A stretch of DNA of 64,000 nucleotides from Nitrospira sp. (GTDB lineage: Bacteria; Nitrospirota; Nitrospiria; Nitrospirales; Nitrospiraceae). The notes below the pieces were generated by a model. It saw nothing but the letters and a program-made list of their open reading frames with translations, was not told the DNA's origin and made no database searches. Position 1 is the first letter of the stretch. Every line of letters starts with the position of its first letter. Location of the stretch: contig JACOEL010000002.1 in the NCBI GenBank assembly GCA_024998625.1, positions 310,001 to 374,000 of the forward strand, in the 5' to 3' direction. Shown in pieces: positions 5,149 through 17,421 of the stretch. A program made the translations under genes and the position numbers.

Positions 5149-5418
5149 ATGTTGAAGATCACCAAAATTCAAGAAAGCGGAAGCGACGTCCTTCTCAAAC
5201 TGGAAGGAAAGATCATGGCGCAGTGGGCCTCTCTCCTCGACGGCGAGTGTCGCTCGTTCCTCCGGCAGAAGAAGGCCGTCTATCTGGACTGTTCCCATGT
5301 GGATTTTATCGATCAGCGAGGAGTGGAGGTGGTCAAGAACTTCCCTTCCACACAAGTTACCCTGATGAGCGCTCCCGGGTTTGTGACGGAGTTGCTGCAG
5401 ATTGGAGGCCAGTCATGA
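5149..5418 (+). CDS. STAS-domain protein (anti-anti-sigma-like)
   Basis: 89 residues, starting at ATG 5149 with AAAGGAG and GGAG upstream. An in-frame codon at 5119 would add ten residues without a better ribosome site. The fold pattern is that of STAS domains: two beta strands, then V-Y-L-D-C-S-H-V-D-F-I-D-Q-R-G near residues 46-60, where SpoIIAA-like proteins carry the phosphorylatable Ser after the Asp. Here Gln-Arg replaces the usual Ser-Ser, so classical serine phosphorylation is unlikely. Its stop overlaps the start of the ECF sigma gene (ATGA), so the two are translationally coupled and probably regulate each other. Confidence 0.7.
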   Translation: MLKITKIQESGSDVLLKLEGKIMAQWASLLDGECRSFLRQKKAVYLDCSHVDFIDQRGVEVVKNFPSTQVTLMSAPGFVTELLQIGGQS

Positions 5419-6146
5419 ATTCAGCCATCACCACCTATCACGAATCGCCGGGACAGTCCTTCCTGGCCGGAGAATCGACGGTCGTTTCGGCAGGCACGCC
5501 GCCTTCGGAAGCAGGGCGGACCCTCCTTGCCAGGCTCCGCGCCGGTGATGAGGGTGCGTTCGGCGAGTTGGTCGACAAACATCACGGCGCACTGATTCGG
5601 ATGGCTCTAAGCCACGTGGCGGATCGGGAGGTGGCCGAGGAAGTGGTGCAAGACACGTGGATAGCCGTGATCGAAGGGTTGTCCCGCTTCGAGGGACGCT
5701 CGTCGCTGCGGACCTGGATCTTCGGGATTCTGATTCATAAGGCGAAGGACCGGGGCGTGCGCGAGAAGCGGCACAGGACGTTCTCCGCCTTCGATTCCCA
5801 CGAGGACGACCACGATGAAGCGCTCGATCCCTCCCGTTTCCATCAATCGGGCGAGTGGGCCGGTCATTGGGCCTTCCCGCCGCAACCGTGGGACGACCAG
5901 ACCCCTGAGAAGCTCCTGGCCTCACAGCAGGCGGTCGCGGCAATGCAGCGGGCGATCGACGCCCTGCCGGTTACGCTGAAAGAGGTCTTGATTCTTCGCG
6001 ATGTCGATGGGCTGGAATCGCAGGAGGTATGCGAGTTGCTGAAGATCACGGAAACCAATCTGTATGTGCGCTTACACCGGGCCCGAGAGCGCGTGCGCCG
6101 GGCGGTGGAGGTCTATCTGGAAGGGATGGTGCCTGAGGCAGTGTAA
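5415..6146 (+). CDS. ECF-type RNA polymerase sigma factor
   Basis: 243 residues from ATG 5415, which overlaps the stop of the STAS gene. Sigma region 2 lies at about 35-105 (E-E-V-V-Q-D-T-W and the R-T-W-I-F-G-I-L motif), and region 4 at about 175-235 (L-P-V-T-L-K-E-V-L-I-L-R-D-V-D-G-L). The linker is long and Trp-rich (GEWAGHWAFPPQPW). The same G-H-W feature occurs in the ECF factor at 57658-58254, so the two belong to one subfamily. A small zinc-finger protein follows, as is normal for an ECF factor and its anti-sigma partner. Confidence 0.9.
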   Translation: MNSAITTYHESPGQSFLAGESTVVSAGTPPSEAGRTLLARLRAGDEGAFGELVDKHHGALIRMALSHVADREVAEEVVQDTWIAVIEGLSRFEGRSSLRTWIFGILIHKAKDRGVREKRHRTFSAFDSHEDDHDEALDPSRFHQSGEWAGHWAFPPQPWDDQTPEKLLASQQAVAAMQRAIDALPVTLKEVLILRDVDGLESQEVCELLKITETNLYVRLHRARERVRRAVEVYLEGMVPEAV

Positions 6147-6201
6147 GAAATGCCTGAACGGGGAGACTGAGGGATGAGTACCATCACTGGAGGTCCTCCC
6201 C

Positions 6202-6483
6202 ATGGCACACGATGCGTTTGAACGCACGGCACCGGACATCACGTGCCGTGAGGTGGTCGACCGGACCTCGGCGTACCTCGATGAGCATGTGGGTGATCCG
6301 ATAAAAGTTCGCCTGACCATGCATCTGTCCAGCTGTATCGGTTGTGGGACGTATGTGAAACAGATTGCGTCCATTCGGAACCTGCTCGGATTGCTGCCGG
6401 GAGCAGTCGAGGAACCGGCCCGGCGTGACCGTTTGTGCCGGATATTCTCGGCGCGACAGCAGCGGCTGTCGTCGGCCACATGA
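6202..6483 (+). CDS. Small zinc-finger (zf-HC2) protein, probable anti-sigma factor
   Basis: 93 residues, with GGAGGT 7 bases before the ATG. It carries the zinc-binding H-x-x-x-C-x-x-C signature (HLSSCIGC) near residues 41-48, preceded by a possible first ligand at Cys15. Anti-sigma domains of this type hold their ECF sigma factor and release it on a stimulus. There is no membrane segment, so it is a soluble form. It lies 55 bp after the ECF gene in the same direction. The equivalent gene at 57380-57661 is a paralogue in the same context. Confidence 0.8.
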   Translation: MAHDAFERTAPDITCREVVDRTSAYLDEHVGDPIKVRLTMHLSSCIGCGTYVKQIASIRNLLGLLPGAVEEPARRDRLCRIFSARQQRLSSAT

Positions 6484-6640: not shown

Positions 6641-7987
6641 ATGGAGAGCGCATTACTTTACGACCGGCTGCAGTTTGCCGTTACCTCCACCTTTCACTAT
6701 CTCTTTCCGCAATTGACGATGGGTTTGGCTCTGCCGCTGGTCTATTTTCGGACCAGGGATCTCCTGAGTGCCGACGATCATTTTCATCATGTGGCCCGGT
6801 TCTGGACCAGTATCTTTGCCCTGAGCTTTGCCTTTGGCGTCGTGACCGGCATTCCCTTGGAATTTCAATTCGGCACGAACTGGGCGAAGTTCTCCAATTA
6901 CGCGGGGGGAGTCATCGGGCAAACCCTGGCGATGGAAGGGGTGTTCGCATTCTTCCTGGAGTCTTCTTTCTTAGGGCTGTTGCTGTTCGGCGAGAATCGA
7001 TTCAGCCGCCGCGTGCAGTGGGTTGCCGCGCTGATGTTGTTCCTGGGCTCCTGGCTGTCCGGGTATTTCATCTTGGCCACCAACGCCTGGATGCAACATC
7101 CTGTGGCCTATCGTGTGGCCGAGGATGGTCGCTTGGTCGTGGACAGTGTGATCGGGTTGCTCAGCAATCCCTGGCTCTTCTGGCAGTTCGCCCACAACAT
7201 GACTGCTGCAGTGGTGACCGGGTCCTTCGTGATGGCGGCGGTCGGCGCCTTCTATCTATTGGCTGGTCAGCACCGGTCCCATGCCAAGACCTATCTACGC
7301 ACCGGGGTGGTCGTCGGGGCCGTCGCTTCCATGTTGATGATCTCGCCGACAGGACATGAAAACGCCAGGCAGGTGTTCGAGTATCAGCCGATCAAGGGTG
7401 CCGCCTTCGAGGGGCTGTTTCGCACCGAGCGGGGAGCCGATGTCGTGTTAGTCGGCCAGCCGAATGTGGAAACCATGACCATCGATAATCCACTGGTGAT
7501 CCCATCCGCCCTGAGCCTGCTCGTGTATTACGACCTCTATGCCAATGTGAAGGGACTCGATGTGTTCGCGCTGCGAGAGTGGCCTGACAACATCCCGCTT
7601 CTCTACTACTCGTACCACATCATGGCTGGACTGGGGACCATCCTGGTGGCCGTGATGGGGCTTGCACTCCTCTGGTTGTGGCGGGGGAGGCTCTTCCAGG
7701 CAAACTGGTTGCTCTGGTTGCTCATGCTCAGCGTCCCGTTTCCCTATATCGCCACCACCGCCGGGTGGATGACGACCGAACTGGGTCGCCAGCCGTGGCT
7801 TGTGTATGGGTTGCTCCACACGGCCGATGGCGTCTCCCCCTTAGTCCATTCGGGGAACGCGCTGTTCACGCTGATCGGATTTCTCGGTCTCTACCTGTTC
7901 CTTGGCCTGCTCTTTCTGTTCCTGCTGGCCGAGACGGTTCGACATGGACCGGCAGAGCCAGCCACTGCGGGCGTCGTGTCGGGCTGA
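6641..7987 (+). CDS. cydA: Cytochrome bd-type quinol oxidase subunit I
   Basis: 448 residues; GAGGAGG precedes the ATG. The protein oxidises quinol in the inner membrane and passes electrons to oxygen through hemes b558, b595 and d. His19 lines up exactly with the E. coli heme b595/d ligand, and His185 (F-A-H-N-M) with the b558 ligand. The Q-loop lysine/glutamate pair is recognisable (QPIKGAAFEG), and G-R-Q-P-W is present. The protein lacks the long Q-loop insertion, placing it in the short-loop (CIO-like) class. About nine membrane helices are visible. cydB follows after 18 bp, forming one transcription unit. Confidence 0.93.
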   Translation: MESALLYDRLQFAVTSTFHYLFPQLTMGLALPLVYFRTRDLLSADDHFHHVARFWTSIFALSFAFGVVTGIPLEFQFGTNWAKFSNYAGGVIGQTLAMEGVFAFFLESSFLGLLLFGENRFSRRVQWVAALMLFLGSWLSGYFILATNAWMQHPVAYRVAEDGRLVVDSVIGLLSNPWLFWQFAHNMTAAVVTGSFVMAAVGAFYLLAGQHRSHAKTYLRTGVVVGAVASMLMISPTGHENARQVFEYQPIKGAAFEGLFRTERGADVVLVGQPNVETMTIDNPLVIPSALSLLVYYDLYANVKGLDVFALREWPDNIPLLYYSYHIMAGLGTILVAVMGLALLWLWRGRLFQANWLLWLLMLSVPFPYIATTAGWMTTELGRQPWLVYGLLHTADGVSPLVHSGNALFTLIGFLGLYLFLGLLFLFLLAETVRHGPAEPATAGVVSG

Positions 7988-8005
7988 TCGGAGAACGGTC
8001 ACGCG

Positions 8006-9094
8006 ATGGAAACCTTTTGGTTTGGCGCCGTCACGTTGATGTTGGCGGTCTACGTGGTGCTCGACGGCTACGATTTCGGGGTCGGCATGGTATCCCCCCT
8101 TGTCGCTCGGACGGACGAAGACCGCCGGCTGGTCCTGGCGGCCATCGGTCCGGTCTGGAGCGGCAATGAAGTATGGTTGATCGCCGCAGGAGCCGTCCTG
8201 TTCCTGGCCTTTCCCAAGGCCTATGCCGCAGGGTTCAGCGGTTTCTATCTCGCGCTGATCATCGTCCTCTGGTTGCTGATGGGGCGCGGTTTGGCCATTG
8301 AACTGCGCGGGCACCTGGACCATCCTCTCTGGAGACAATTCTGGGATGTGGTATTCGCTGTCACCAGCGCATTGCTGGCGGTCGTGTTCGGGGCCGCACT
8401 GGGCAACCTGGTTCGCGGTGTGCCGTTGAATGCCGAGGGCTACTTCTTTGTGGCACTCTGGACCAACTTCCTCCCAGGTCCTGAGCCGGGCATCCTCGAT
8501 TGGTTCACGCTGCTGCTGGCACTCACCAGCGTCGTGCTCCTAACCCTGCACGGAGCCAATTTCCTGGCCATGAAAACCATGAATGAGGTGCAGGCCAGGG
8601 CCCGGCGCGTCGCTCGCTTGACCGGGTATGCCACAGTCCTGCTGGTCGCGTCGGTTCTGCCGGTGCTTTCCCTGGTGCAGCCGTCTCTTCGGTTGAACTA
8701 CGATGCCCATCCGATCGGGTATGCTCTGCCGTTGATCGCGCTCGCCGCGCTGACAGCCATGCAGGTATTCAGAGCACAAGAGCGAGACGTGGCGGCGTTC
8801 ACCTCCTCAAGTCTGCTCCTGTTCGGCCTGCTCACCGGTATCGCCTGGGGCTCTTATCCGAACATTTTAATCGCCACCACCGATCCGGCCCACAGCTTGA
8901 CGGCTACCACTGCGTCGGCTGGAAGCTACGGTCTGCAAGCGGCCTTCTGGTGGTTTACGATCGGACTGACCGTCATCATCGCCTATCAAGTCTGGATCCA
9001 CAGCCTCTTCTGGGGGCCCGTCAAGCCGGAGTCCGGCGACTCCTCCGACCACTACTCAGCCCGTAAGATTGTCCCCTCTTCGCCGACGAAGTAG
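8006..9094 (+). CDS. cydB: Cytochrome bd-type quinol oxidase subunit II
   Basis: 362 residues with about eight to nine membrane helices. The N terminus carries the family signature: V-L-D-G-Y-D-F-G-V-G-M near residues 18-28, then G-P-V-W-S-G-N-E-V-W-L near 49-59. CydB packs against CydA and stabilises the hemes. Length and spacing to cydA are typical. No cydX-like small subunit or cydDC assembly genes are seen here. Confidence 0.93.
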   Translation: METFWFGAVTLMLAVYVVLDGYDFGVGMVSPLVARTDEDRRLVLAAIGPVWSGNEVWLIAAGAVLFLAFPKAYAAGFSGFYLALIIVLWLLMGRGLAIELRGHLDHPLWRQFWDVVFAVTSALLAVVFGAALGNLVRGVPLNAEGYFFVALWTNFLPGPEPGILDWFTLLLALTSVVLLTLHGANFLAMKTMNEVQARARRVARLTGYATVLLVASVLPVLSLVQPSLRLNYDAHPIGYALPLIALAALTAMQVFRAQERDVAAFTSSSLLLFGLLTGIAWGSYPNILIATTDPAHSLTATTASAGSYGLQAAFWWFTIGLTVIIAYQVWIHSLFWGPVKPESGDSSDHYSARKIVPSSPTK

Positions 9095-9130
9095 TAGGTC
9101 CACCATTTGTTGCATTCATGGAGCAGAATC

Positions 9131-10297
9131 ATGAAGGCCGTTGCCGTTATTCCCGGACAACCGGATTCCATCCATCTTGCCGAGTTGCCGAAACCGTCTG
9201 TCCATGAGATCCCGAATGGGCGGGGCGTGCTCGTGCAAGTGTTGCGCGTCGGGGTCGACGGCACGGACAAGGAAATCAATGCCGCCGAGTATGGGATGGC
9301 ACCTCCCGGTGACGACTTTCTCGTGATCGGTCATGAGTGTCTGGGCCGGGTGCTGGAGGTCGGCCCCGCTGTCAGCGAGTTCGCGCCGGGTGATTATGTG
9401 GTGCCGACGGTGCGGCGGCCGGGCGGCAGTTTTTACGATCAGATCGGCCAGTACGATATGACAACCGAGGACACGTATTTCGAACGGGGCATCAACCTTC
9501 GGCACGGCTATTTGACGGAACGGTTCGTGGACGAGCCGGAATACCTCGTGAAGATTCCGAATGGGCTCAAGCACGTGGCCGTGTTGTTGGAACCGGCGTC
9601 GATCATCGAGAAGGGCCTCATCCAGGCCTATGAGGCACAGCGGCGTTTTAAAATCTGGCGGCCGAGGAAAGCCGCCGTGTTGGGCGCCGGAACCGTGGGA
9701 CTGCTTGCCGCCCTTTCGTTGAGGATGAAGGGGTTCGACGTGACCAGCTTCGGCAAGCAGGGCGGGCTGTCACGTAATCGCGACCTGTTGGCGGAACTCG
9801 GCGTGCGCTATGTTTCTACGAACGAGCTGTCGATCCGAGAGGCGGCAAAGCACTTTGGCCCCTTCGATTTGATGTTCGAGGCGACCGGCTACTCTCCGGT
9901 GGTGTTCGAAGCGATGGAATGTTTGGGCAAGAACGGTGTGCTGGTGCTGGCGAGTGTAACCGGTGGAGACCGTGAGCATCCGATCCCTGCCGACAAGATC
10001 AACTTGGATTTTGTGCTGGGCAACAAACTGGTCGTCGGAACGGTCAATGCCAACCGGGAATATTTTGAAGCGGGGGTCTATGATTTCGCGCGGGCGGAGT
10101 TGGAGTTTTCCGGCTGGCTCTCGAAACTCCTCACCCATCCGGTGGAAGGCCTCGACAATTACCGGGACATGATGCGGCTGCTGACGGAGGAGCGTAGCGC
10201 GATCAAGGTCTACGTGAATGTGGCCTACGACCAGCAGGGCCCGGCGCCTCGTCTTGGCCATGAGATGAAGCCGCGATGTACCCTCCCGAATGGATGA
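9131..10297 (+). CDS. Glucose 1-dehydrogenase-like zinc alcohol dehydrogenase
   Basis: 388 residues from ATG 9131 (GGAG 7 bases upstream); a TTG at 9107 would add eight residues. A medium-chain dehydrogenase fold is visible: catalytic domain with G-H-E-C-L-G-R-V near 68, Rossmann motif G-A-G-T-V-G-L-L near 187, and the C-terminal K-I-N-L-D-F-V-L-G-N-K stretch typical of archaeal and haloarchaeal glucose dehydrogenases. The usual first zinc-ligand Cys is Asp (G-V-D-G-T-D), the variant known in Haloferax glucose dehydrogenase. It would oxidise an aldose with NAD(P)+. It follows cydB by 36 bp and overlaps the next gene by 4 bp. Confidence 0.8.
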   Translation: MKAVAVIPGQPDSIHLAELPKPSVHEIPNGRGVLVQVLRVGVDGTDKEINAAEYGMAPPGDDFLVIGHECLGRVLEVGPAVSEFAPGDYVVPTVRRPGGSFYDQIGQYDMTTEDTYFERGINLRHGYLTERFVDEPEYLVKIPNGLKHVAVLLEPASIIEKGLIQAYEAQRRFKIWRPRKAAVLGAGTVGLLAALSLRMKGFDVTSFGKQGGLSRNRDLLAELGVRYVSTNELSIREAAKHFGPFDLMFEATGYSPVVFEAMECLGKNGVLVLASVTGGDREHPIPADKINLDFVLGNKLVVGTVNANREYFEAGVYDFARAELEFSGWLSKLLTHPVEGLDNYRDMMRLLTEERSAIKVYVNVAYDQQGPAPRLGHEMKPRCTLPNG

Positions 10298-10761
10298 GAA
10301 CAATGCGCGCAGCGCAACGCGTGATCACCGGGATGCTTCTGATGCTGCTGTTCGTCTCGCCTTCATGGGGCGGGCAGTTCTTTGAGCAAGACGGCATTGC
10401 GATTCGAGGCTACGACCCGGTTGCCTATTTCACGAGGGGGACACCCATGCAGGGTGTCCCCGAGTTCCAGGCCGTCTTTCAAGAATCGACCTTTTATTTT
10501 GCCTCGGCGACTCATCGAGACATCTTTCTTGCGAATCCGGAGAAATTCTCCCCCCAATACGGCGGTTTCTGCGCCTATGGCATGGCCAAAGGCTACAAAG
10601 CCTCCACCGATCCGGTCGCTTTTACGGTGGTTGGAGAGAAACTCTATCTCAATTACAGTGGCACCGTGCGGGCGCTCTGGATCTTCGATATTTCCGGCTA
10701 CGTGAAGAAAGCCGACCACAATTGGCCTGCCGTGCGGTTGACCACCCGGGTCACGCCATAG
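10294..10761 (+). CDS. Exported YHS-domain protein (first copy)
   Basis: 155 residues if started at ATG 10294, which overlaps the previous stop (ATGA); ATG 10303 is an alternative and 10276 a longer form. A signal peptide covers about the first 27 residues. The body is a YHS domain: G-Y-D-P-V-A-Y-F-T near 42, F-A-S-A near 74, and G-G-F-C-A-Y-G near 94. YHS domains are short metal-binding modules, often near copper or heavy-metal proteins. The protein at 56767-57228 is a clear paralogue with the same motifs and a similar C-terminal D-I-x-G-Y-x-K-K/A. Function unknown. Confidence 0.8.
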   Translation: MRTMRAAQRVITGMLLMLLFVSPSWGGQFFEQDGIAIRGYDPVAYFTRGTPMQGVPEFQAVFQESTFYFASATHRDIFLANPEKFSPQYGGFCAYGMAKGYKASTDPVAFTVVGEKLYLNYSGTVRALWIFDISGYVKKADHNWPAVRLTTRVTP

Positions 10762-10778: not shown

Positions 10779-10807
10779 AACGTAAGAACTCCCCATCCGC
10801 ATCGACT
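10779..10807 (+). promoter_or_regulatory. Weak third match to the ECF-type bipartite motif
   Basis: CGTAAGAA, 11 bases, then CATCGACTCA. The first half matches 7 of 8 and the second 6 of 10 positions of the motif found upstream of the ECF gene at 58254 and the YHS gene at 57228. It is about 55 bp before the cytochrome b gene. Suggestive only. Confidence 0.25.
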
Positions 10808-10860: not shown

Positions 10861-11775
10861 ATGACACCGACATTACACGTTGATCCCCTTGTTCCCGAAA
10901 CGATGCCCGTGATTTCTGCGCCGCCGGTGGACCAGCCCGCGACAGCACCGGGGGCGTGGGGCACCGGCCAAGACCTGCCAGAGGAGCGGATCTATCGCCA
11001 CCGCCTCCCGGTGCGGATCGGTCATTGGCTGAATGTGCTCTGTCTCTTCATTCTCATCATGAGCGGGTTGCAGATCTTCAACGCCCATCCGGCACTCTAT
11101 TGGGGCGATCGATCGGACCGAGACCGACCCCTGCTTTCCATTCGCGCCGTCAAATCGGATGGGGGCCAAGTGAACGGCATCACCACGATACTGGGCTATC
11201 CATTCGATACCACCGGCGTCCTCGGTTATTCCAACAACAGTGCCAGGGCGTTTCCCGATTGGGCGACTGTGCCGAGCGCGAAATGGCTCGCGATGGGCCG
11301 TCAGTGGCATCTCTTCTTTGCCTGGCTGTTCGTCATCAACGGTCTGCTCTTTGCGACCTATGCCTTCATCAGCCGCCACTTCACGAAAGACCTGCTGCCG
11401 ACCGGCCGAGATCTGAAGCACATCCCACAGGCGGTGAAAGACCATCTCCGGTTGCGCCACCCGATGGGCAACGAAGCCAAGCGCTACAACGTGCTGCAGA
11501 AGCTGGCCTACATCGGCGTTCTGTTCGGCCTCGCGCCGCTGATCGTGTTGACCGGTCTGACGATGTCGCCGACGATCGATACCGCGCTTCCCTGGCTATT
11601 GACGATTTTCGGAGGAAGACAGGCGGCGCGGACGATTCATTTCATCGCCTGCTTCTCGTTCATCGGGTTCATCGTCATCCACGTCGCACAGGTGATGCTG
11701 ACCGGTTTCTTGAACAACATCCGATCGATGGTGACCGGATACTTCGTCGTACGGCATGAAGGAGTGAAGCGATGA
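10861..11775 (+). CDS. Cytochrome b561-type membrane protein
   Basis: 304 residues, with GGAGG before the ATG. After a Pro-rich N terminus, four membrane helices occur at about 60-80, 150-172, 218-240 and 255-280. The likely heme-ligand histidines sit in R-I-G-H-W-L-N near 55, R-Q-W-H-L-F-F near 148, R-T-I-H-F-I-A near 260 and V-I-H-V-A-Q near 275. This is the pattern of the diheme cytochrome b subunits of formate dehydrogenases, hydrogenases and thiosulfate reductases. The next gene overlaps (ATGA) and encodes an exported molybdoenzyme, so it probably passes electrons between that enzyme and the quinone pool. Confidence 0.85.
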   Translation: MTPTLHVDPLVPETMPVISAPPVDQPATAPGAWGTGQDLPEERIYRHRLPVRIGHWLNVLCLFILIMSGLQIFNAHPALYWGDRSDRDRPLLSIRAVKSDGGQVNGITTILGYPFDTTGVLGYSNNSARAFPDWATVPSAKWLAMGRQWHLFFAWLFVINGLLFATYAFISRHFTKDLLPTGRDLKHIPQAVKDHLRLRHPMGNEAKRYNVLQKLAYIGVLFGLAPLIVLTGLTMSPTIDTALPWLLTIFGGRQAARTIHFIACFSFIGFIVIHVAQVMLTGFLNNIRSMVTGYFVVRHEGVKR

Positions 11776-12542
11776 AGCACGAACAAGCCATGGAACGCCG
11801 CGGATTCTTGAAGGCCACGGTCGGCGCAGCGAGCCTCGTTGCACTCGCCGGTTGTGACAAGTTGACGCAGAGCAGTTGGTTCCCCTCGGTTCTCCACAAG
11901 GCTGAGGGCCTGACCGAACTGGCTCAGCGCGCGGTCACACCGGCCAATGCCATGGCCAAAGAGTATGGGGAGGGAGACATTTCGGACGTATTTCCGGCCA
12001 ACGGCAATACGGATCCTGGGACGGAAGAGTATGCTGAAATGGTGAAGAACGATTTTGCCGACTGGCAGGTACTGATCGATGGGCTGGTGACAACGCCCAC
12101 CATGTTCTCGCTCGGCGCAATCAAGGAGATGCCCGCGCGCACGCAGATCACTCGGCACGATTGCGTCGAAGGGTGGAGCGCCATCGGCAAGTGGACCGGT
12201 GTGCCGTTGGGCGATCTGCTGCGCAACGTCGAGCCGCTGCCGACGGCGAAGTATGCGGTGTTCTATTGCGCCGACATCGACGATGAAGGCTTGTCGTATT
12301 ATGAAAGTCTGGCGGTGGTCGATTGCTTTCACCCGCAGACGATCCTGGCGTATGAATTGAACGACAAAGCACTCGATATTTCTCATGGCGCCCCGTTGCG
12401 CCTTCGCTTCGAACGCCAGTTGGGCTACAAACAAGCAAAGTATGTGAAACGTATTGAGTTGGTCGAGTCGCTCGCCGACATCGGCGGGGGTAAGGGGGGC
12501 TATTGGGAAGATCAAGGGTATGAATGGTACGCAGGCATATAG
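11772..12542 (+). CDS. Exported molybdopterin oxidoreductase (sulfite oxidase/MsrP-like)
   Basis: 256 residues. The N terminus has a twin-arginine motif (RRGFLK) and a lipobox-like L-A-G-C, so it is exported folded, possibly as a lipoprotein. The body is an oxidoreductase molybdopterin-binding domain. Cys in R-H-D-C-V-E-G-W-S near residue 127 is the expected molybdenum ligand, followed by K-W-T-G-V-P-L-G-D-L-L and the late H-G-A-P-L-R-L-R. There is no dimerisation domain, as in MsrP (YedY). With the overlapping cytochrome b it forms a membrane-linked redox pair like MsrPQ, though the cytochrome is of another family. Substrate unknown. Confidence 0.85.
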   Translation: MKHEQAMERRGFLKATVGAASLVALAGCDKLTQSSWFPSVLHKAEGLTELAQRAVTPANAMAKEYGEGDISDVFPANGNTDPGTEEYAEMVKNDFADWQVLIDGLVTTPTMFSLGAIKEMPARTQITRHDCVEGWSAIGKWTGVPLGDLLRNVEPLPTAKYAVFYCADIDDEGLSYYESLAVVDCFHPQTILAYELNDKALDISHGAPLRLRFERQLGYKQAKYVKRIELVESLADIGGGKGGYWEDQGYEWYAGI

Positions 12543-12543
12543 G

Positions 12544-13851
12544 ATGTTGAAACAGGCTTCCAATGTCCCTCTCGCTCTTTCGCACCCTGCGACGTACATA
12601 CAAGCGTACGCCTTGAGTCCTCAATCGTTCGGGCCTTGCCGGACAACCTGTTTGAATAGCCTATTAGGTAGTTTGATGTTCTTCACCCTCTCCGGATGTC
12701 TCTCGCCCATCGCCATGCATCGGGCGGTGATCGAGTACGACCGGACGGTGAGTTATGTCGAAGCGGATCTGCTCCTCTTGAACATTGCGCGGGCCCGATA
12801 CCACCGGCCGGTGCATTTCACCGCGGTGTCCAGCGTCGCGGCCACGTTCGACTTTCGAACCAGCGCCGGGATCTCCGGAGGATTGGGACGTGCGCCGGAA
12901 GCGGTCGAGCGGGCGATCAATCTGGAGTATAGCGCGAGCGTCGCGGAGAATCCGACCATCACGATTGTGCCGATCACCGGCGAGGAATTTACGAAGCGTG
13001 TGTTGCGGCCGCTCGACGAGGGTAAGTTCGAGTTCCTGGTTCGGCAGGGCTACGACATCAATATGGTGCTGCGTCTTATGGCGCGGGGCATTGCGTTCGA
13101 TGACGAGCGCGGCCCTCTCGTGTTGTTTAATGCGCCGTCCCAAGGGGAGGGCTACAGAGAGTTTCGCCGGAGGCTGTTGCATTTGGCCGGGTTGGACACG
13201 GAGCGCCAACTCTTCGTCGGTCCGATTTTGTTCGAGGAGAGTCACACGGTCCGCACGAATCGTCCGCCGAATCCCGACGAAGTCGTCGCGGCACTGGAGA
13301 AGGGATTCCGTTGGGAAGGCGACGAAGAGGGAAAAGTCCACACGGTCCGCCGCAAGGCCGTCGGCAGGCTGATGATCGCAAATTACGACCCGGCCCGATT
13401 GTCCAACGAGGAACGGCGGCACCTGCATGAGGAAGCGCAACGGGCGCCGCTCGACTCCATCCTGGTCGATATCCGGCCGGGCCATCCGGGTGGCGACTAT
13501 CCGTGGCACGGCTCGATCTTGCTCCGCAGCATGAACGCGATCATCGGCTTCGTGGCCCGGAGCATCGAGGAGGAGCAGGAGATGATGGTGTCCCCCGATG
13601 TCAGAACAAAGACGGTCGTGCGGAACCCGGCTCGTACGCTCGAAATCGAGGAGTCCGACTCGAAGCCCGGCGATTATGAATTTTCCGTGCCGTTCGACGG
13701 CCGGTATTATTCGGTCCGCAAATATCCGGTCAGTCAGGGGATGGTTCCCAGCTGGAATCAGGAGGCCTTTGCCGTCCTGTCGAATCTGTTCCAGATGACC
13801 GTTACGGATCTCACGAAGTATCCGACCCCGGCCATTGCGATCGCCAAATGA
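12544..13851 (+). CDS. Large lipoprotein of unknown function
   Basis: About 435 residues from ATG 12544, chosen because it follows the previous stop directly; the open frame extends to 12454 and the true start is uncertain. A hydrophobic stretch ending in L-S-G-C (lipobox) lies near residues 45-57, so the mature protein is likely membrane-anchored. The body is mostly soluble, with no catalytic motif I recognise. It contains E-A-D-L-L-L-L-N-I-A-R-A-R-Y, a pattern also seen in other lipoproteins with a conserved L-L-N-I-x-R-A-R start. Position inside the redox operon suggests a support or assembly role; this is inference. Confidence 0.65.
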   Translation: MLKQASNVPLALSHPATYIQAYALSPQSFGPCRTTCLNSLLGSLMFFTLSGCLSPIAMHRAVIEYDRTVSYVEADLLLLNIARARYHRPVHFTAVSSVAATFDFRTSAGISGGLGRAPEAVERAINLEYSASVAENPTITIVPITGEEFTKRVLRPLDEGKFEFLVRQGYDINMVLRLMARGIAFDDERGPLVLFNAPSQGEGYREFRRRLLHLAGLDTERQLFVGPILFEESHTVRTNRPPNPDEVVAALEKGFRWEGDEEGKVHTVRRKAVGRLMIANYDPARLSNEERRHLHEEAQRAPLDSILVDIRPGHPGGDYPWHGSILLRSMNAIIGFVARSIEEEQEMMVSPDVRTKTVVRNPARTLEIEESDSKPGDYEFSVPFDGRYYSVRKYPVSQGMVPSWNQEAFAVLSNLFQMTVTDLTKYPTPAIAIAK

Positions 13852-13895
13852 ATCCATCGTTCGTCGACACGCGTAGATCAAGAGGGGAGGACAGC

Positions 13896-14414
13896 ATGTG
13901 TGGTCGAATCATGACCGGGGTTCTGGTCGTCCTGGCCGGGGTCCTGTTGAACTGGGCCGTCGCCAATGCGGGAGTCGGCATGAAGGCGCCCGAGATGACC
14001 AATGAGACGTGGTTGAACAGCATGCCGCTCCATCTCGCGGACCTGACGGGCAAGGTGGTTATGGTGGAGTTCTGGACGTTCGGCTGCTCCAACTGCCGGC
14101 ACGTCGAACCCTACGTGAAACAGTGGTATCAGAAATATGCCGATCAGGGGTTCGTCGTGATTGGCGTGCATTCACCTGAGTTCTCCCACGAACAGGAGGT
14201 CGAGAATGTGAAGCGCTATATCACGGAGCACGATATCCGCTTCGCGGTCCCCATCGATAATGATTTTTCGACATGGAATAAGTACGGGAACCGTTATTGG
14301 CCTACGATGTATCTGGTCGATAAGCAGGGCGTCATTCGCTTCGTACAAATCGGGGAAGGCCGGTATCGCGAAACAGAAGCAGTGATCCGGTCGTTACTGG
14401 CCGAGAAGGAATGA
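13896..14414 (+). CDS. Exported thioredoxin-like (redoxin) protein
   Basis: 172 residues from ATG 13896, which has a strong AGGGGAGG site; an upstream ATG at 13848 overlaps the previous stop but lacks one. Signal peptide about 1-25. The thioredoxin fold is clear: V-E-F-W-T-F-G-C-S-N-C near residues 54-64 holds the C-x-x-C active site, and W-P-T-M-Y-L holds the cis-Pro region. It resembles the redox domain found in TlpA/DipZ-type proteins. In the periplasm it could keep cysteines of the neighbouring molybdoenzymes or cytochromes reduced. It overlaps the next gene by 4 bp. Confidence 0.85.
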   Translation: MCGRIMTGVLVVLAGVLLNWAVANAGVGMKAPEMTNETWLNSMPLHLADLTGKVVMVEFWTFGCSNCRHVEPYVKQWYQKYADQGFVVIGVHSPEFSHEQEVENVKRYITEHDIRFAVPIDNDFSTWNKYGNRYWPTMYLVDKQGVIRFVQIGEGRYRETEAVIRSLLAEKE

Positions 14415-15421
14415 GTCTTATGCGACGACTATCCCGTCGATCCCTGCTGTCTGTGACCGGCGCCGCGGCCCTCTCCTTCAGCTTGCGGCCCTTCTCTGCC
14501 TTCGCGGGCTTCTGGCAACAGTTGGTCGGTCAACAGGAACCAAAGCCGACGAAGCCGATCACCCCCAATCATGAATTCTACGTCACGTCCTATCGCAGTC
14601 CGCCCTCTATACGGGTCGGCGAGTGGTCGCTTTCGATCGCCGGCCTGGTCGACCGACCGGTCACCTTGACCTATGAACAGCTGATCGCGCAGCCCAAGGT
14701 CACGCAAATCGTGACGCTGGAATGCGTCGGCAACACGGTCGCGGGGGAACTGATGAGTACGGCCGAATGGGAAGGAATCTCCTTGCGCTCGCTCCTGCAA
14801 GAGGTGGGCGTGGACGCGATGGCCTACGATGTCGTCTTTCGCGCAGCGGACGGTTATTCAGACAGCATTCCTGTGAACCGGGCGATGGCCGGTGACGTGA
14901 TCATTGCGCACACGATGAACGGTGTGGCGTTACCGCAAGGTCACGGTTTCCCCGCTCGCGCGATCGTGCCGGGCCACTACGGGATGAAAAGCGTGCAGTG
15001 GCTGACGGAGATCGAGGTCGTCGCTCACGATCACAAAGGTTACTATCAGCAAAAAGGATGGACTGAAGCCGCGATCGTCAAGACGATGTCGCGTATCGAT
15101 GTCCCTGGTCACGGAGCGACGGTTCATGGATTACGGCAGCAGGTCGAAGGGATTGCATTTGCCGGTTCGAGAGGTATTCGGCTGGTCGAGCTCAGCACCG
15201 ACGGAGGAGAGCATTGGACTGCGGCCAGGCTAGCGGCGCCCCTTTCTCCCTATGCCTGGACCTTCTGGAGTTACGATTGGACCGTTCCTACTCCCGGCCG
15301 ATATACGCTGCGCGTTCGCGCCACGGATGGAGATGGGGTGCTCCAGACGACACTCGAACAGGACCCCGCGTCTGATGGTGCGGCGGGGCTTCATGAAATC
15401 ACGTTTGCAGTCGTAGGCTAA
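14411..15421 (+). CDS. Tat-exported sulfite oxidase-family molybdoenzyme
   Basis: 336 residues (ATG 14420 is an alternative). A Tat signal is present (RRLSRRSLLS, then a hydrophobic core to F-A-G). The molybdopterin domain spans about 55-210, with the molybdenum-ligand Cys in L-E-C-V-G-N near 98 and P-G-H-Y-G-M-K-S-V-Q-W near 190. A Mo-cofactor dimerisation domain (E-L-S-T-D-G-G-E-x-W near 260) follows, as in true sulfite oxidases. It is the second molybdoenzyme of the operon and probably oxidises sulfite or a related compound in the periplasm. The operon ends here; a tRNA 3' fragment begins within about ten bases. Confidence 0.88.
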   Translation: MSLMRRLSRRSLLSVTGAAALSFSLRPFSAFAGFWQQLVGQQEPKPTKPITPNHEFYVTSYRSPPSIRVGEWSLSIAGLVDRPVTLTYEQLIAQPKVTQIVTLECVGNTVAGELMSTAEWEGISLRSLLQEVGVDAMAYDVVFRAADGYSDSIPVNRAMAGDVIIAHTMNGVALPQGHGFPARAIVPGHYGMKSVQWLTEIEVVAHDHKGYYQQKGWTEAAIVKTMSRIDVPGHGATVHGLRQQVEGIAFAGSRGIRLVELSTDGGEHWTAARLAAPLSPYAWTFWSYDWTVPTPGRYTLRVRATDGDGVLQTTLEQDPASDGAAGLHEITFAVVG

Positions 15422-15426
15422 CCCCG

Positions 15427-15471
15427 ACTGTAAGGCGCGGGTGCCGGGTTCGAATCCCGGCCGATTCACCA
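15427..15471 (+). other. 3' end of a tRNA gene (fragment, possible att site)
   Basis: A perfect T arm is visible: CCGGG (15444-15448), loop TTCGAAT, CCCGG (15456-15460). It is followed by CCGATTC, discriminator A and an encoded CCA ending at 15471. The matching 5' acceptor strand (GAATCGG) is absent upstream, so the gene is not intact. CTGTAAG upstream resembles the anticodon loop of tRNA-Tyr, but its stem does not pair. Such remnants commonly mark where a genomic island or phage recombined into a tRNA gene. Confidence 0.6.
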
Positions 15472-15816
15472 TCCATTCATCATTCGCGCAAGCCCGCTCC
15501 CGCTGGTTCGGCTTCGCAGGACAACGCCTGTTCCAATGTTGTAAGTGTCGCCGATGGCGCCAGGCCTCCTTGCCCTCGTTGTTCCTCTCCGGCCGTTCGC
15601 CGTATGTCGCACATTCAGTCACCTGTCGGCCTTGTGCTTTTTGGGGTTGAGGATGGGGCGAGAGACGTGCAAGATTGCAACAGGCTCTCTTAGTGTACCC
15701 TCTGCTCGGTCACTCTCAGTATCGATTCTCTGAGGCCTCAAAACATTGGTGCTCCTAACGTGGGCGTCACACTGTGCGGTCGGTGGCGGCCGTGCACACG
15801 AAAGGAATGACATGTG
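15472..15816. other. Intergenic region after the tRNA fragment
   Basis: About 345 bp with no open frame I believe. A 10-bp palindrome TGAGGCCTCA lies near 15731. No clear promoter could be set. Confidence 0.4.
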
Positions 15817-16284: not shown

Positions 16285-17421
16285 ATGACCTCCCTGGCCT
16301 CAACGACACGGCGGATCAACCGGAACATCAGGCAGGACCCGCGTTGGGCGGCCATCCTGGCCCGCGATCCTGCCGCGGACGGCACCTTCTTCTATTCCGT
16401 CAGGACGACAGGCGTGTATTGTCGTCCTTCCTGTGCGGCGCGGCGGCCTCTGCGAGAGAACGTCAGGTTTCACGCGGCCTGTGCGGATGCCGAGGAGGCT
16501 GGGTTTCGCCCGTGCAAGCGTTGCCGGCCCGATCAGCCCTCTTCTGGTGATCGGCAAGCGGCAGTGGTCGCCATCTGCCGATACGTCGAGCAGGCCGAGC
16601 ATCTGCCGTCTCTCGATGAGTTGGCGCAACGCGCGAAGATGAGCCCGTCCCATTTTCATCGGGTCTTTACCTCCGTCACAGGTCTGACACCGCGTGGGTA
16701 TGCCGCTGCGCATCGCGCGGCACGCGTACGGCGTGAACTCGGGCGTGATCGTCCGGTGACGGAGGTTCTCTACCAGGCTGGGTTCAATTCTTCCGGGCGA
16801 TTCTATGAAGTGTCGAATGCCCTTCTGGGGATGACCCCGTCACGCTACCGGGCTGGGGGCGCGCAGACCGAGATCCGATTTGCTGTAGGAGACTGTTCGC
16901 TCGGCTCGATCCTGGTGGCCCGAAGTGAACGTGGGGTCTGCGCCATTCTGCTGGGTGATGATCCGGATGCATTGACGCGGGATCTTCAGGCCCGGTTTCC
17001 CCGGGCGAACCTCACCGGTGGGGATGCCGCGTTTGCGCGGCTGGTCTCAACCGTGGTCGGCTTCGTGGAAGCTCCGAGGCGAGGATTGAACCTTCCGCTC
17101 GATATCCGGGGCACGGCGTTTCAGCAGCTGGTGTGGCAGGCCTTGCAGCGGATTCCCGTGGGCTCGACGGCGACGTATACCGAAATCGCGACTCGCATCG
17201 GATCGCCGAAGTCCGCGCGAGCGGTCGGGCGGGCTTGTGGAGCGAATCCCTTGGCGGTCGCCATTCCCTGTCATCGAGTGGTGCGACAGGACGGTGACCT
17301 CTCGGGCTATCGTTGGGGCGTTGCGCGTAAACGCGCGTTACTCGCTCTCGAGGTGAACCCTGCTCGACAACCGTTACCCTCTTCCCACATTGCTCAGAAC
17401 GACATCGTAACCAAGAGATGA
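16285..17421 (+). CDS. ada: Ada: DNA alkylation repair methyltransferase and regulator
   Basis: 378 residues from ATG 16285 (GGAG 6 bases upstream). The N-terminal Ada zinc domain has Cys46 and Cys50 (T-G-V-Y-C-R-P-S-C) and a second pair (P-C-K-R-C). These repair methyl phosphotriesters and switch the protein on. An AraC-type helix-turn-helix follows (about 95-190; L-A-x-x-A-x-M-S-P-S-H-F-H-R-V-F). The O6-methylguanine methyltransferase domain (about 205-365) has the acceptor Cys in P-C-H-R-V-V. The fused arrangement is the E. coli type, so it probably activates its own gene. No alkB or alkA lies next to it. Confidence 0.95.
   Translation: MTSLASTTRRINRNIRQDPRWAAILARDPAADGTFFYSVRTTGVYCRPSCAARRPLRENVRFHAACADAEEAGFRPCKRCRPDQPSSGDRQAAVVAICRYVEQAEHLPSLDELAQRAKMSPSHFHRVFTSVTGLTPRGYAAAHRAARVRRELGRDRPVTEVLYQAGFNSSGRFYEVSNALLGMTPSRYRAGGAQTEIRFAVGDCSLGSILVARSERGVCAILLGDDPDALTRDLQARFPRANLTGGDAAFARLVSTVVGFVEAPRRGLNLPLDIRGTAFQQLVWQALQRIPVGSTATYTEIATRIGSPKSARAVGRACGANPLAVAIPCHRVVRQDGDLSGYRWGVARKRALLALEVNPARQPLPSSHIAQNDIVTKR

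Follow-up and report, generated by a model that had tools for sequence, protein, structure and literature searches.

The window analysed here, 64,000 nucleotides of Nitrospira sp. contig JACOEL010000002.1 (C17 of a genome of 4.4 Mb), carries at positions 10861-15421 five open reading frames (ORFs) on one strand, as the original prediction had described. They encode a b561-type cytochrome b (cytb), a molybdoenzyme (Mo1), a lipoprotein, a thioredoxin-like protein (Trx) and a second molybdoenzyme (Mo2). We consider it likely that cytb and Mo1 together constitute a periplasmic methionine-sulfoxide reductase, driven by quinol and of the YedY1/YedZ1 (BcrP/BcrQ) type, that is switched on by an extracytoplasmic function (ECF) sigma factor and accompanied by the lipoprotein and by Trx-Mo2 as optional modules. 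As a system the core is of a known kind, that of YedY1/YedZ1-MrpX and of the hypochlorite defence BcrXQP of Brucella, in a Nitrospirota genome, and the locus is therefore ordinary in kind. What is new is its putative switch, an ECF sigma factor with a zinc-type anti-sigma factor, and the promoter motif GTAAGA-N15-CGAC.

The cytochrome and Mo1 are the coherent unit of the locus. Their genes (10861..11775 and 11772..12542, plus strand) overlap by 4 bp in the DNA itself. In a phylum sample of 198 genomes, Mo1 is full-length at 53% identity or more in this genome and in 18 others, and in 18/18 of these relatives cytb lies upstream on the same strand, with 2-470 bp between the aligned ends; up to 20 kb was taken around each Mo1, and likewise around the Mo1 of two genomes that hold fragments only (L056 and L057), which are excluded from the 18. 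A wider search gave at least 589 Mo1 relatives among at least 595 pattern matches. In the best 80, retained as loci, cytb precedes Mo1 on the same strand in 80/80, with a gap of at most 261 bp. Both adjacency figures depend on Mo1 as the query, and the best-80 loci are not all independent, since L098, kept among them, repeats the L042 contig in length and gene content. The named relatives of Mo1 at 72-77% identity come from genomes labelled Nitrospira, Nitrospirae and Nitrospiraceae metagenome, and from one labelled Nitrosospira. In one relative (L041, genome G043) a second, truncated cytb lies at 16647-17090, and its ORF, by our reading, runs into transposase-like sequence. In a genome of the window's own genus (L057, genome G121), fragments of Mo1, possibly of Mo2, and of the dehydrogenase at 9573-10561 adjoin near-full cydAB matches, a decayed copy of the locus.

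Mo1 (PF00174, 106.8 bits) and Mo2 both exceed the PF00174 cut-off with the Cys ligand aligned, and so belong to the sulfite oxidase fold superfamily; Mo1 is without and Mo2 with the dimerisation domain according to Pfam, and a twin-arginine motif can be read by eye at both N-termini, the last two points as originally predicted. Since Mo1 bears a lipobox-like L-A-G-C besides the twin-arginine motif, it may be a lipoprotein exported by the twin-arginine translocation (Tat) pathway. The top PDB match of the Mo1 profile is E. coli MsrP (1xdq), with which Mo1 is aligned across the core and C-V-E-x-W-S is kept. Phylogeny places the enzymes apart: in a tree of 57 rows, the 40 Mo1-type rows group together (100/99), and four MsrP rows do so separately (100/99). 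This tree took in 21 of the best-80 loci and omitted own_C32; the Nitrospirota row L113 is placed with the proteobacterial group, and long branches (own_C22, own_C3, own_C34 and own_C18) were flagged by the program, so that joins with the Mo2 side are possibly spurious. The cytochrome (PF01292, 80.7 bits) has His55, His150, His260 and His274 conserved in 95/98 cytochrome rows, an alignment in which L050 is not among the rows and 3/98 rows miss most invariant columns. By our reading these residues lie in membrane segments, where a b cytochrome with two hemes would require them, and cytb is probably such a protein. E. coli MsrQ belongs to PF01794 (Ferric_reduct), and no significant alignment of cytb with it was obtained. 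The likeness to MsrPQ proposed in the original prediction is therefore borne out for cytb-Mo1 by the 1xdq match, by a methionine-rich peptide beside the pair in part of its relatives and by MsrA, MsrB and an ECF sigma factor as neighbours in one annotated record; it fails in that the cut-off for MsrP is missed and the cytochrome is of another family than MsrQ. Mo1 further differs from MsrP in forming a separate clade, in its lipobox-like motif and in its shorter C-terminus.

A link to methionine repair comes from the surroundings of the pair in relatives. A small, strongly Met-rich peptide is encoded 5' of cytb in 11/18 Nitrospirota loci, in one of them cut short; these peptides are mostly of the M-K-G-E-M-K repeat type, the one of G129 has a different sequence, and the copy of G139 is without signal peptide. 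Counting ORFs that lie no more than 900 bp from the cytb-Mo1 pair and contain 15% Met or more over 60 residues, we find an exported Met-rich ORF adjoining the pair in 23 of the best-80 loci (mostly upstream, downstream in five) versus 0/1561 control ORFs, namely plus-strand ORFs of up to 180 residues more than 2 kb away. Two further loci, L073 and L074, hold longer Met-rich ORFs. Against the NCBIfam model penta_MxKDx (cut-off 41), two of four Nitrospirota peptides score 29.3 and 21.5 bits and the other two give no match, and a Microvirga peptide scores 64.6 bits, over the cut-off. The annotation of the Microvirga plasmid lists a DUF1109 protein and a sigma factor on one strand and the MXKDX peptide, a cytochrome b/b6, a molybdopterin-binding protein, MsrA and MsrB on the other. 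The window pair is alignable to this annotated pair over most of its length (identity 52% for cytb and 56% for Mo1); it consists, as expected of a pair of the YedZ1-YedY1/BcrQP type, of a PF01292 cytochrome encoded just 5' of a short MsrP-like enzyme. In a second plasmid record the pair is present and the peptide is not annotated. DM13-domain proteins with a Met-containing stretch near the N-terminus are encoded 5' of a thioredoxin gene at L158 10752-11282 and L162 8104-8589, and might provide a methionine bait of another kind.

Upstream of the five genes, the window encodes an ECF sigma factor (5415..6146, plus strand; Sigma70_r2 and Sigma70_r4_2; start set by comparing relatives, the domain scan having run from 5427) and a putative anti-sigma factor (6202..6483, plus strand). 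The latter is not of the DUF1109 membrane type but a 93-residue, zinc-finger-like protein. It is under all family cut-offs (35.3 bits with a cut-off of 50, RsrA 23.8 with 62.5, zf-HC2 20.6 with 22.2), and is named as an anti-sigma-E/RsrA-like factor from these profile scores and its H-x3-C-x2-C motif; its pairing with the sigma factor, and the binding of the latter to DNA, are putative. The sigma cluster recurs in 9/18 relatives and the anti-sigma cluster in 10/18. An initial count of hexamer pairs returned mostly repeats of the coding region of the YHS-domain gene described below. The motif TGTAAGA, with CGAC 15 bases on, was spotted by eye in L038, L041, L051 and the window, and was then tested. 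In 32 sources (587,185 bases) GTAAGA-N15-CGAC occurs 33 times on the plus and once on the minus strand, whereas the other spacings between 8 and 25 give 0 or 1 copy per strand. In 21 sources (407,475 bases) there are 28 plus-strand copies and one minus-strand copy, versus 0.4 expected on the plus strand from a first-order Markov model; four of the 28 sites had suggested the motif, and the remaining 24, like the spacing and strand controls, had not. The sites precede cytb (9), the anti-sigma gene (6), the dehydrogenase gene (4), a Met-rich peptide, the YHS gene and another ORF (1 each), 6/28 precede none of the chosen ORF starts, and the 15 spacer bases are variable. A copy stands before cytb in eight relatives and an exact copy before the anti-sigma gene in six. 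The window itself has exact copies 79 bp 5' of cytb (10782..10806, plus strand) and 44 bp 5' of the dehydrogenase ORF (9063..9087, plus strand), and a copy with one mismatch 5' of the anti-sigma gene (6143..6167, plus strand). The copies cluster: in G139, 5/7 fall within 30 kb, and here 4/8 genome copies share one strand of a 21.3-kb stretch of contig C17. It is position, strand, spacing and clustering that argue for a promoter. Two further exact motifs upstream of the window, at G000:C17:299480 and 308475 (L175 7981 and 16976), precede genes of a GH63/MGH1-like glycosidase and a GMC oxidoreductase, which suggests that a stress regulon extends here over more than 20 kb.

Azospira suillum, in work of Melnyk from 2015, is said to scavenge hypochlorite by means of SigF/NrsF, YedY1/YedZ1 and MrpX. 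The parts sigF/nrsF, yedYZ and mrpX of this system appear in the excerpts of PMC4623255 and PMC5748585. It has in common with our locus an MsrP-like enzyme and a membrane partner near an ECF sigma/anti-sigma pair and, in many relatives of the window, an exported Met-rich peptide. In contrast, the anti-sigma factor of the window is zinc-type and not of the DUF1109 type, DUF1109 being named in an excerpt of PMC9751292; the peptide is missing, and there are additional genes for a YHS protein, a dehydrogenase, CydAB, the lipoprotein, Trx and Mo2. In Brucella, according to PMC8315932, bcrX-Q-P forms a co-transcribed unit that HOCl induces, that is under the control of an ECF sigma factor and that has a part in resistance to HOCl. 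BcrS/AbcS-BcrXQP has the order of peptide, membrane partner and molybdoenzyme found in the relatives of the window, and is likewise under ECF control; the promoter given for BcrS in the same paper, TGTAAC..GCGAAA, resembles TGTAAGA-N15-CGAC. Its anti-sigma factor is DUF1109 and its surroundings differ from those of the window. Among the titles and abstracts listed in searches of the PMC open subset, we found no description of this locus in Nitrospira.

We propose that electrons would pass from quinol through the b561-type cytochrome to Mo1, which, probably anchored as a Tat-exported lipoprotein, would reduce oxidised Met of envelope proteins following attack by hypochlorite or a similar oxidant. 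In relatives, the Met-rich exported peptide would act both as a sacrificial bait and as a substrate; since the window is without such a peptide, Mo1 may act here on ordinary envelope proteins. Expression would be switched by the ECF sigma factor and the zinc-type, possibly redox-sensing anti-sigma factor through GTAAGA-N15-CGAC, and the same promoter, copies of which also precede the anti-sigma and dehydrogenase genes and genes lying shortly beyond the window, may serve these too, with the lipoprotein and Trx-Mo2 as optional modules behind the core. As for the oxidant, a search of the genome for the chlorite dismutase/HemQ family yields three matches, in which Cld and HemQ are not told apart. 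An excerpt of PMC9751292 counts Nitrospirae among the phyla likeliest to hold chlorite dismutase, and one of PMC4623255 considers hypochlorite likely to arise as a side product when chlorite is dismutated. Chlorite dismutation is thus a plausible source of the oxidant, short of proof.

Several observations weigh against assigning cytb-Mo1 to methionine repair under this control. On the MsrP model NF003767 Mo1 scores 91.8 bits, below the cut-off of 207, compared with 504.2 bits for E. coli MsrP and 414.3 bits for a protein of G155. The predicted structure of Mo1 (AlphaFold confidence, pLDDT, 70) ties SorA (Z 18.2, 2.6 Å, 177 residues) with MsrP (Z 17.7-17.9, 182 residues), so that the fold does not fix the substrate. 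In 57 of the best-80 loci no adjoining ORF passes the Met-rich test. At the window locus no Met-rich peptide was found, and a genome-wide search for one gave five weak matches, the best three of which are Lys-rich, Met-poor proteins. The likeness of the window pair to the Azospira and Brucella proteins is drawn through the Microvirga record, and we know of no activity established for any Nitrospirota member. Within the genus, Mo1 is whole in 2/11 other sampled genomes and the core is missing from most. For the promoter, the loci entering the motif counts are related, not independent; in the window alone the signal is weak (six sites at up to one mismatch, mean 2.36, with 3/100 shuffles as high); the whole genome has eight exact copies versus 18 (9 + 9) of a backward control; and 16 genomes of the genus, this one included, have 36 copies of the seven-base form versus 59 of the control. 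With counts below the control, abundance alone shows nothing.

What, then, do the three remaining genes contribute? One explanation is that all five genes encode a single fixed repair machine in which Trx and the lipoprotein are obligatory subunits. The genes are indeed tightly packed in the window, yet the original description of them as mostly overlapping by 4 bp or nearly touching holds for cytb/Mo1 and for trx/Mo2, and at the other two junctions hinges on the start codon assigned: with later starts the gaps reach about 109 bp between Mo1 and lipoprotein and 45 bp between lipoprotein and trx. Among the 18 relatives, a near-full trx at 67% identity or more follows Mo1 or the lipoprotein in six, two more holding a 46-residue piece or a 47% match; the lipoprotein is found in five and Mo2 in two. 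All five genes in order occur in G153 only, 1/18, and none of the three extras is present at 58% identity or more in 9/18 (the 46-residue trx fragment being scored as present). In G125 and G131, Trx-Mo2 also exists where no cytb-Mo1 orthologue is present, and members of the lipoprotein family are found in 44/198 phylum genomes, more than hold the core. Given this distribution we reject the fixed machine, which is very improbable, and find no support for the proposal that thioredoxin and lipoprotein are set parts; lipoprotein, Trx and Mo2 are add-ons behind the core. The check that the original prediction had named, conservation of the five-gene order, turned out against it, the order not being kept even within the genus and the two-gene core being kept wherever a full Mo1 was found. 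We give equally little credence to the notion that cytb-Mo1 is a respiratory module with a b561 cytochrome, unrelated to repair. The named families nearest to cytb are the b subunits of hydrogenase, formate dehydrogenase and thiosulfate reductase, and cydAB and a dehydrogenase are encoded nearby; the three families all score under their cut-offs, no catalytic subunit of hydrogenase, formate or thiosulfate reductase is present among the scanned genes of the window (the search did not extend to relatives), and the link to the Met-rich peptide speaks for repair.

It was also suggested that the operon handles sulfite, in which case Mo2 would be a sulfite dehydrogenase. Mo2 (14411..15421, plus strand; PF00174, 160.5 bits, and PF03404, 27.2 bits with a cut-off of 22.7) does share the molybdenum domain and the dimer domain with SorA, SorT and SoxC, and the families that it matches best, like its solved relatives, are SorA/SoxC-like. 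All three curated cut-offs, 600, 570 and 420 bits, are missed, with scores of 155.2, 95.4 and 146.4, and Pfam finds no cytochrome c family among the five proteins. At the positions of SorA Arg55 and Tyr236, which the mutant entries R55M and Y236F mark, and of His57, which we take to be a residue of the sulfite site, the alignment gives Thr, Tyr and Trp (for Arg55, His57 and Tyr236 in this order). The stretch T-S-Y-R-S-P and the Trp are kept in 4/4 Mo2 orthologues, and Thr-Ser and the Trp in two more distant relatives. As a control, a paralogue on contig C34 keeps Arg, His and Tyr and reaches 250.4 bits against SorA, versus 96.1 for Mo2. Since the residues of the site are replaced, sulfite handling is unlikely and Mo2 is probably not a sulfite oxidase; we reject this role, to which we assign a low probability.

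Trx-Mo2 is a separable module: the two genes overlap by 4 bp in the window and adjoin one another in G153, G125 and G131 as well. Trx (13848..14414, plus strand; PF00578, 57.4 bits) is a free-standing ORF of 188 residues with an apparent signal peptide and a C-S-N-C site; because a good ribosome-binding site (AGGGGAGGACAGC) precedes the ATG at 13896, this start is more likely than that at 13848. Its closest relative is the C-terminal domain of DipZ (2hyx, 140 residues aligned), with which it has the C-x-x-C site in common, whereas the membrane part CcdA is absent from the ORF. The module might be a second branch of repair that shares the stress control of the core, compatible with a repair role of cytb-Mo1, in which the exported thioredoxin would feed or work beside Mo2 in reducing an oxidised thiol or sulfoxide. 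Adjacency and the loss of the sulfite-site residues agree with this, as do two further arrangements, an ECF motif followed by a DM13 protein with a Met-containing stretch, trx and Mo2 in G125, and, in G155, a true MsrP that has beside it a Met-patch DM13 protein and a Trx of the same type (53%). One and the same thioredoxin type is thus found with Mo2 in G125 and with MsrP in G155, which supports, without showing, a repair role. On the other side, adjacency is not electron transfer, to our knowledge no enzyme of the sulfite-oxidase fold is thiol-fed, and the 198 genomes hold only four Mo2 orthologues at 65% identity or more besides that of the window, two of which (G139 and G193) have no near-full trx adjoining; trx in turn occurs without Mo2 or MsrP in four other fetched stretches (L163-L166). 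A second branch is accordingly a possibility that we regard as tentative. A bolder version, which we judge rather doubtful, is that Trx-Mo2 is a new branch of envelope repair, served by thioredoxin, in which the sulfite site has been traded for another and Mo2 stands in the place that MsrP has in another genome beside the same type of Trx; belonging to the same ECF regulon as the quinol-fed Mo1, it would make of the locus one operon that repairs oxidised sulfur with both quinol and thiol electrons, the Met-rich bait being dispensable.

The lipoprotein (12520..13851, plus strand, within an ORF spanning 12454-13851; start at 12520, 12544 or TTG 12652) matches no Pfam or NCBIfam family. Weak SH2-like hits were judged to be chance, and no fold is recognised, the AlphaFold model having a pLDDT of only 69 and no PDB match at E 0.001. 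Between the anti-sigma gene and cytb lie, all on the plus strand, cydA-cydB for a cytochrome bd quinol oxidase (6641..9094; PF01654, 467.2 bits, cydB by profile), a glucose-dehydrogenase-like zinc dehydrogenase gene recognised by Pfam (9107..10297) and the gene of a YHS-domain protein with an apparent signal peptide (10276..10761; NCBIfam YHS_seleno_dom, 144.5 bits with a cut-off of 70). These are recurrent neighbours, the dehydrogenase in 6/18 relatives, the YHS protein in 6/18 (in one of them in pieces) and cydAB in 4/18. Directly 3' of the Mo2 stop, at 15427-15472, a remnant resembling the 3' half of a tRNA (T-arm, acceptor strand and CCA) can be read by eye. A genomic island marked by this remnant was considered; no tRNA was called there, and its 27-base core is single-copy in the genome at up to three mismatches.

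The points of note in this locus are its different switch, a bait peptide that is missing here, a regulon that can be read out and the Trx-Mo2 module. The locus, with a sigma factor of its own, an anti-sigma factor of another type and a definable promoter, makes it directly testable how members of this phylum survive reactive chlorine, and GTAAGA-N15-CGAC provides a handle for reading out the regulon. Trx-Mo2, in turn, points to an uncharacterised group of proteins with the sulfite-oxidase fold, which might readily be mis-annotated as sulfite oxidases.

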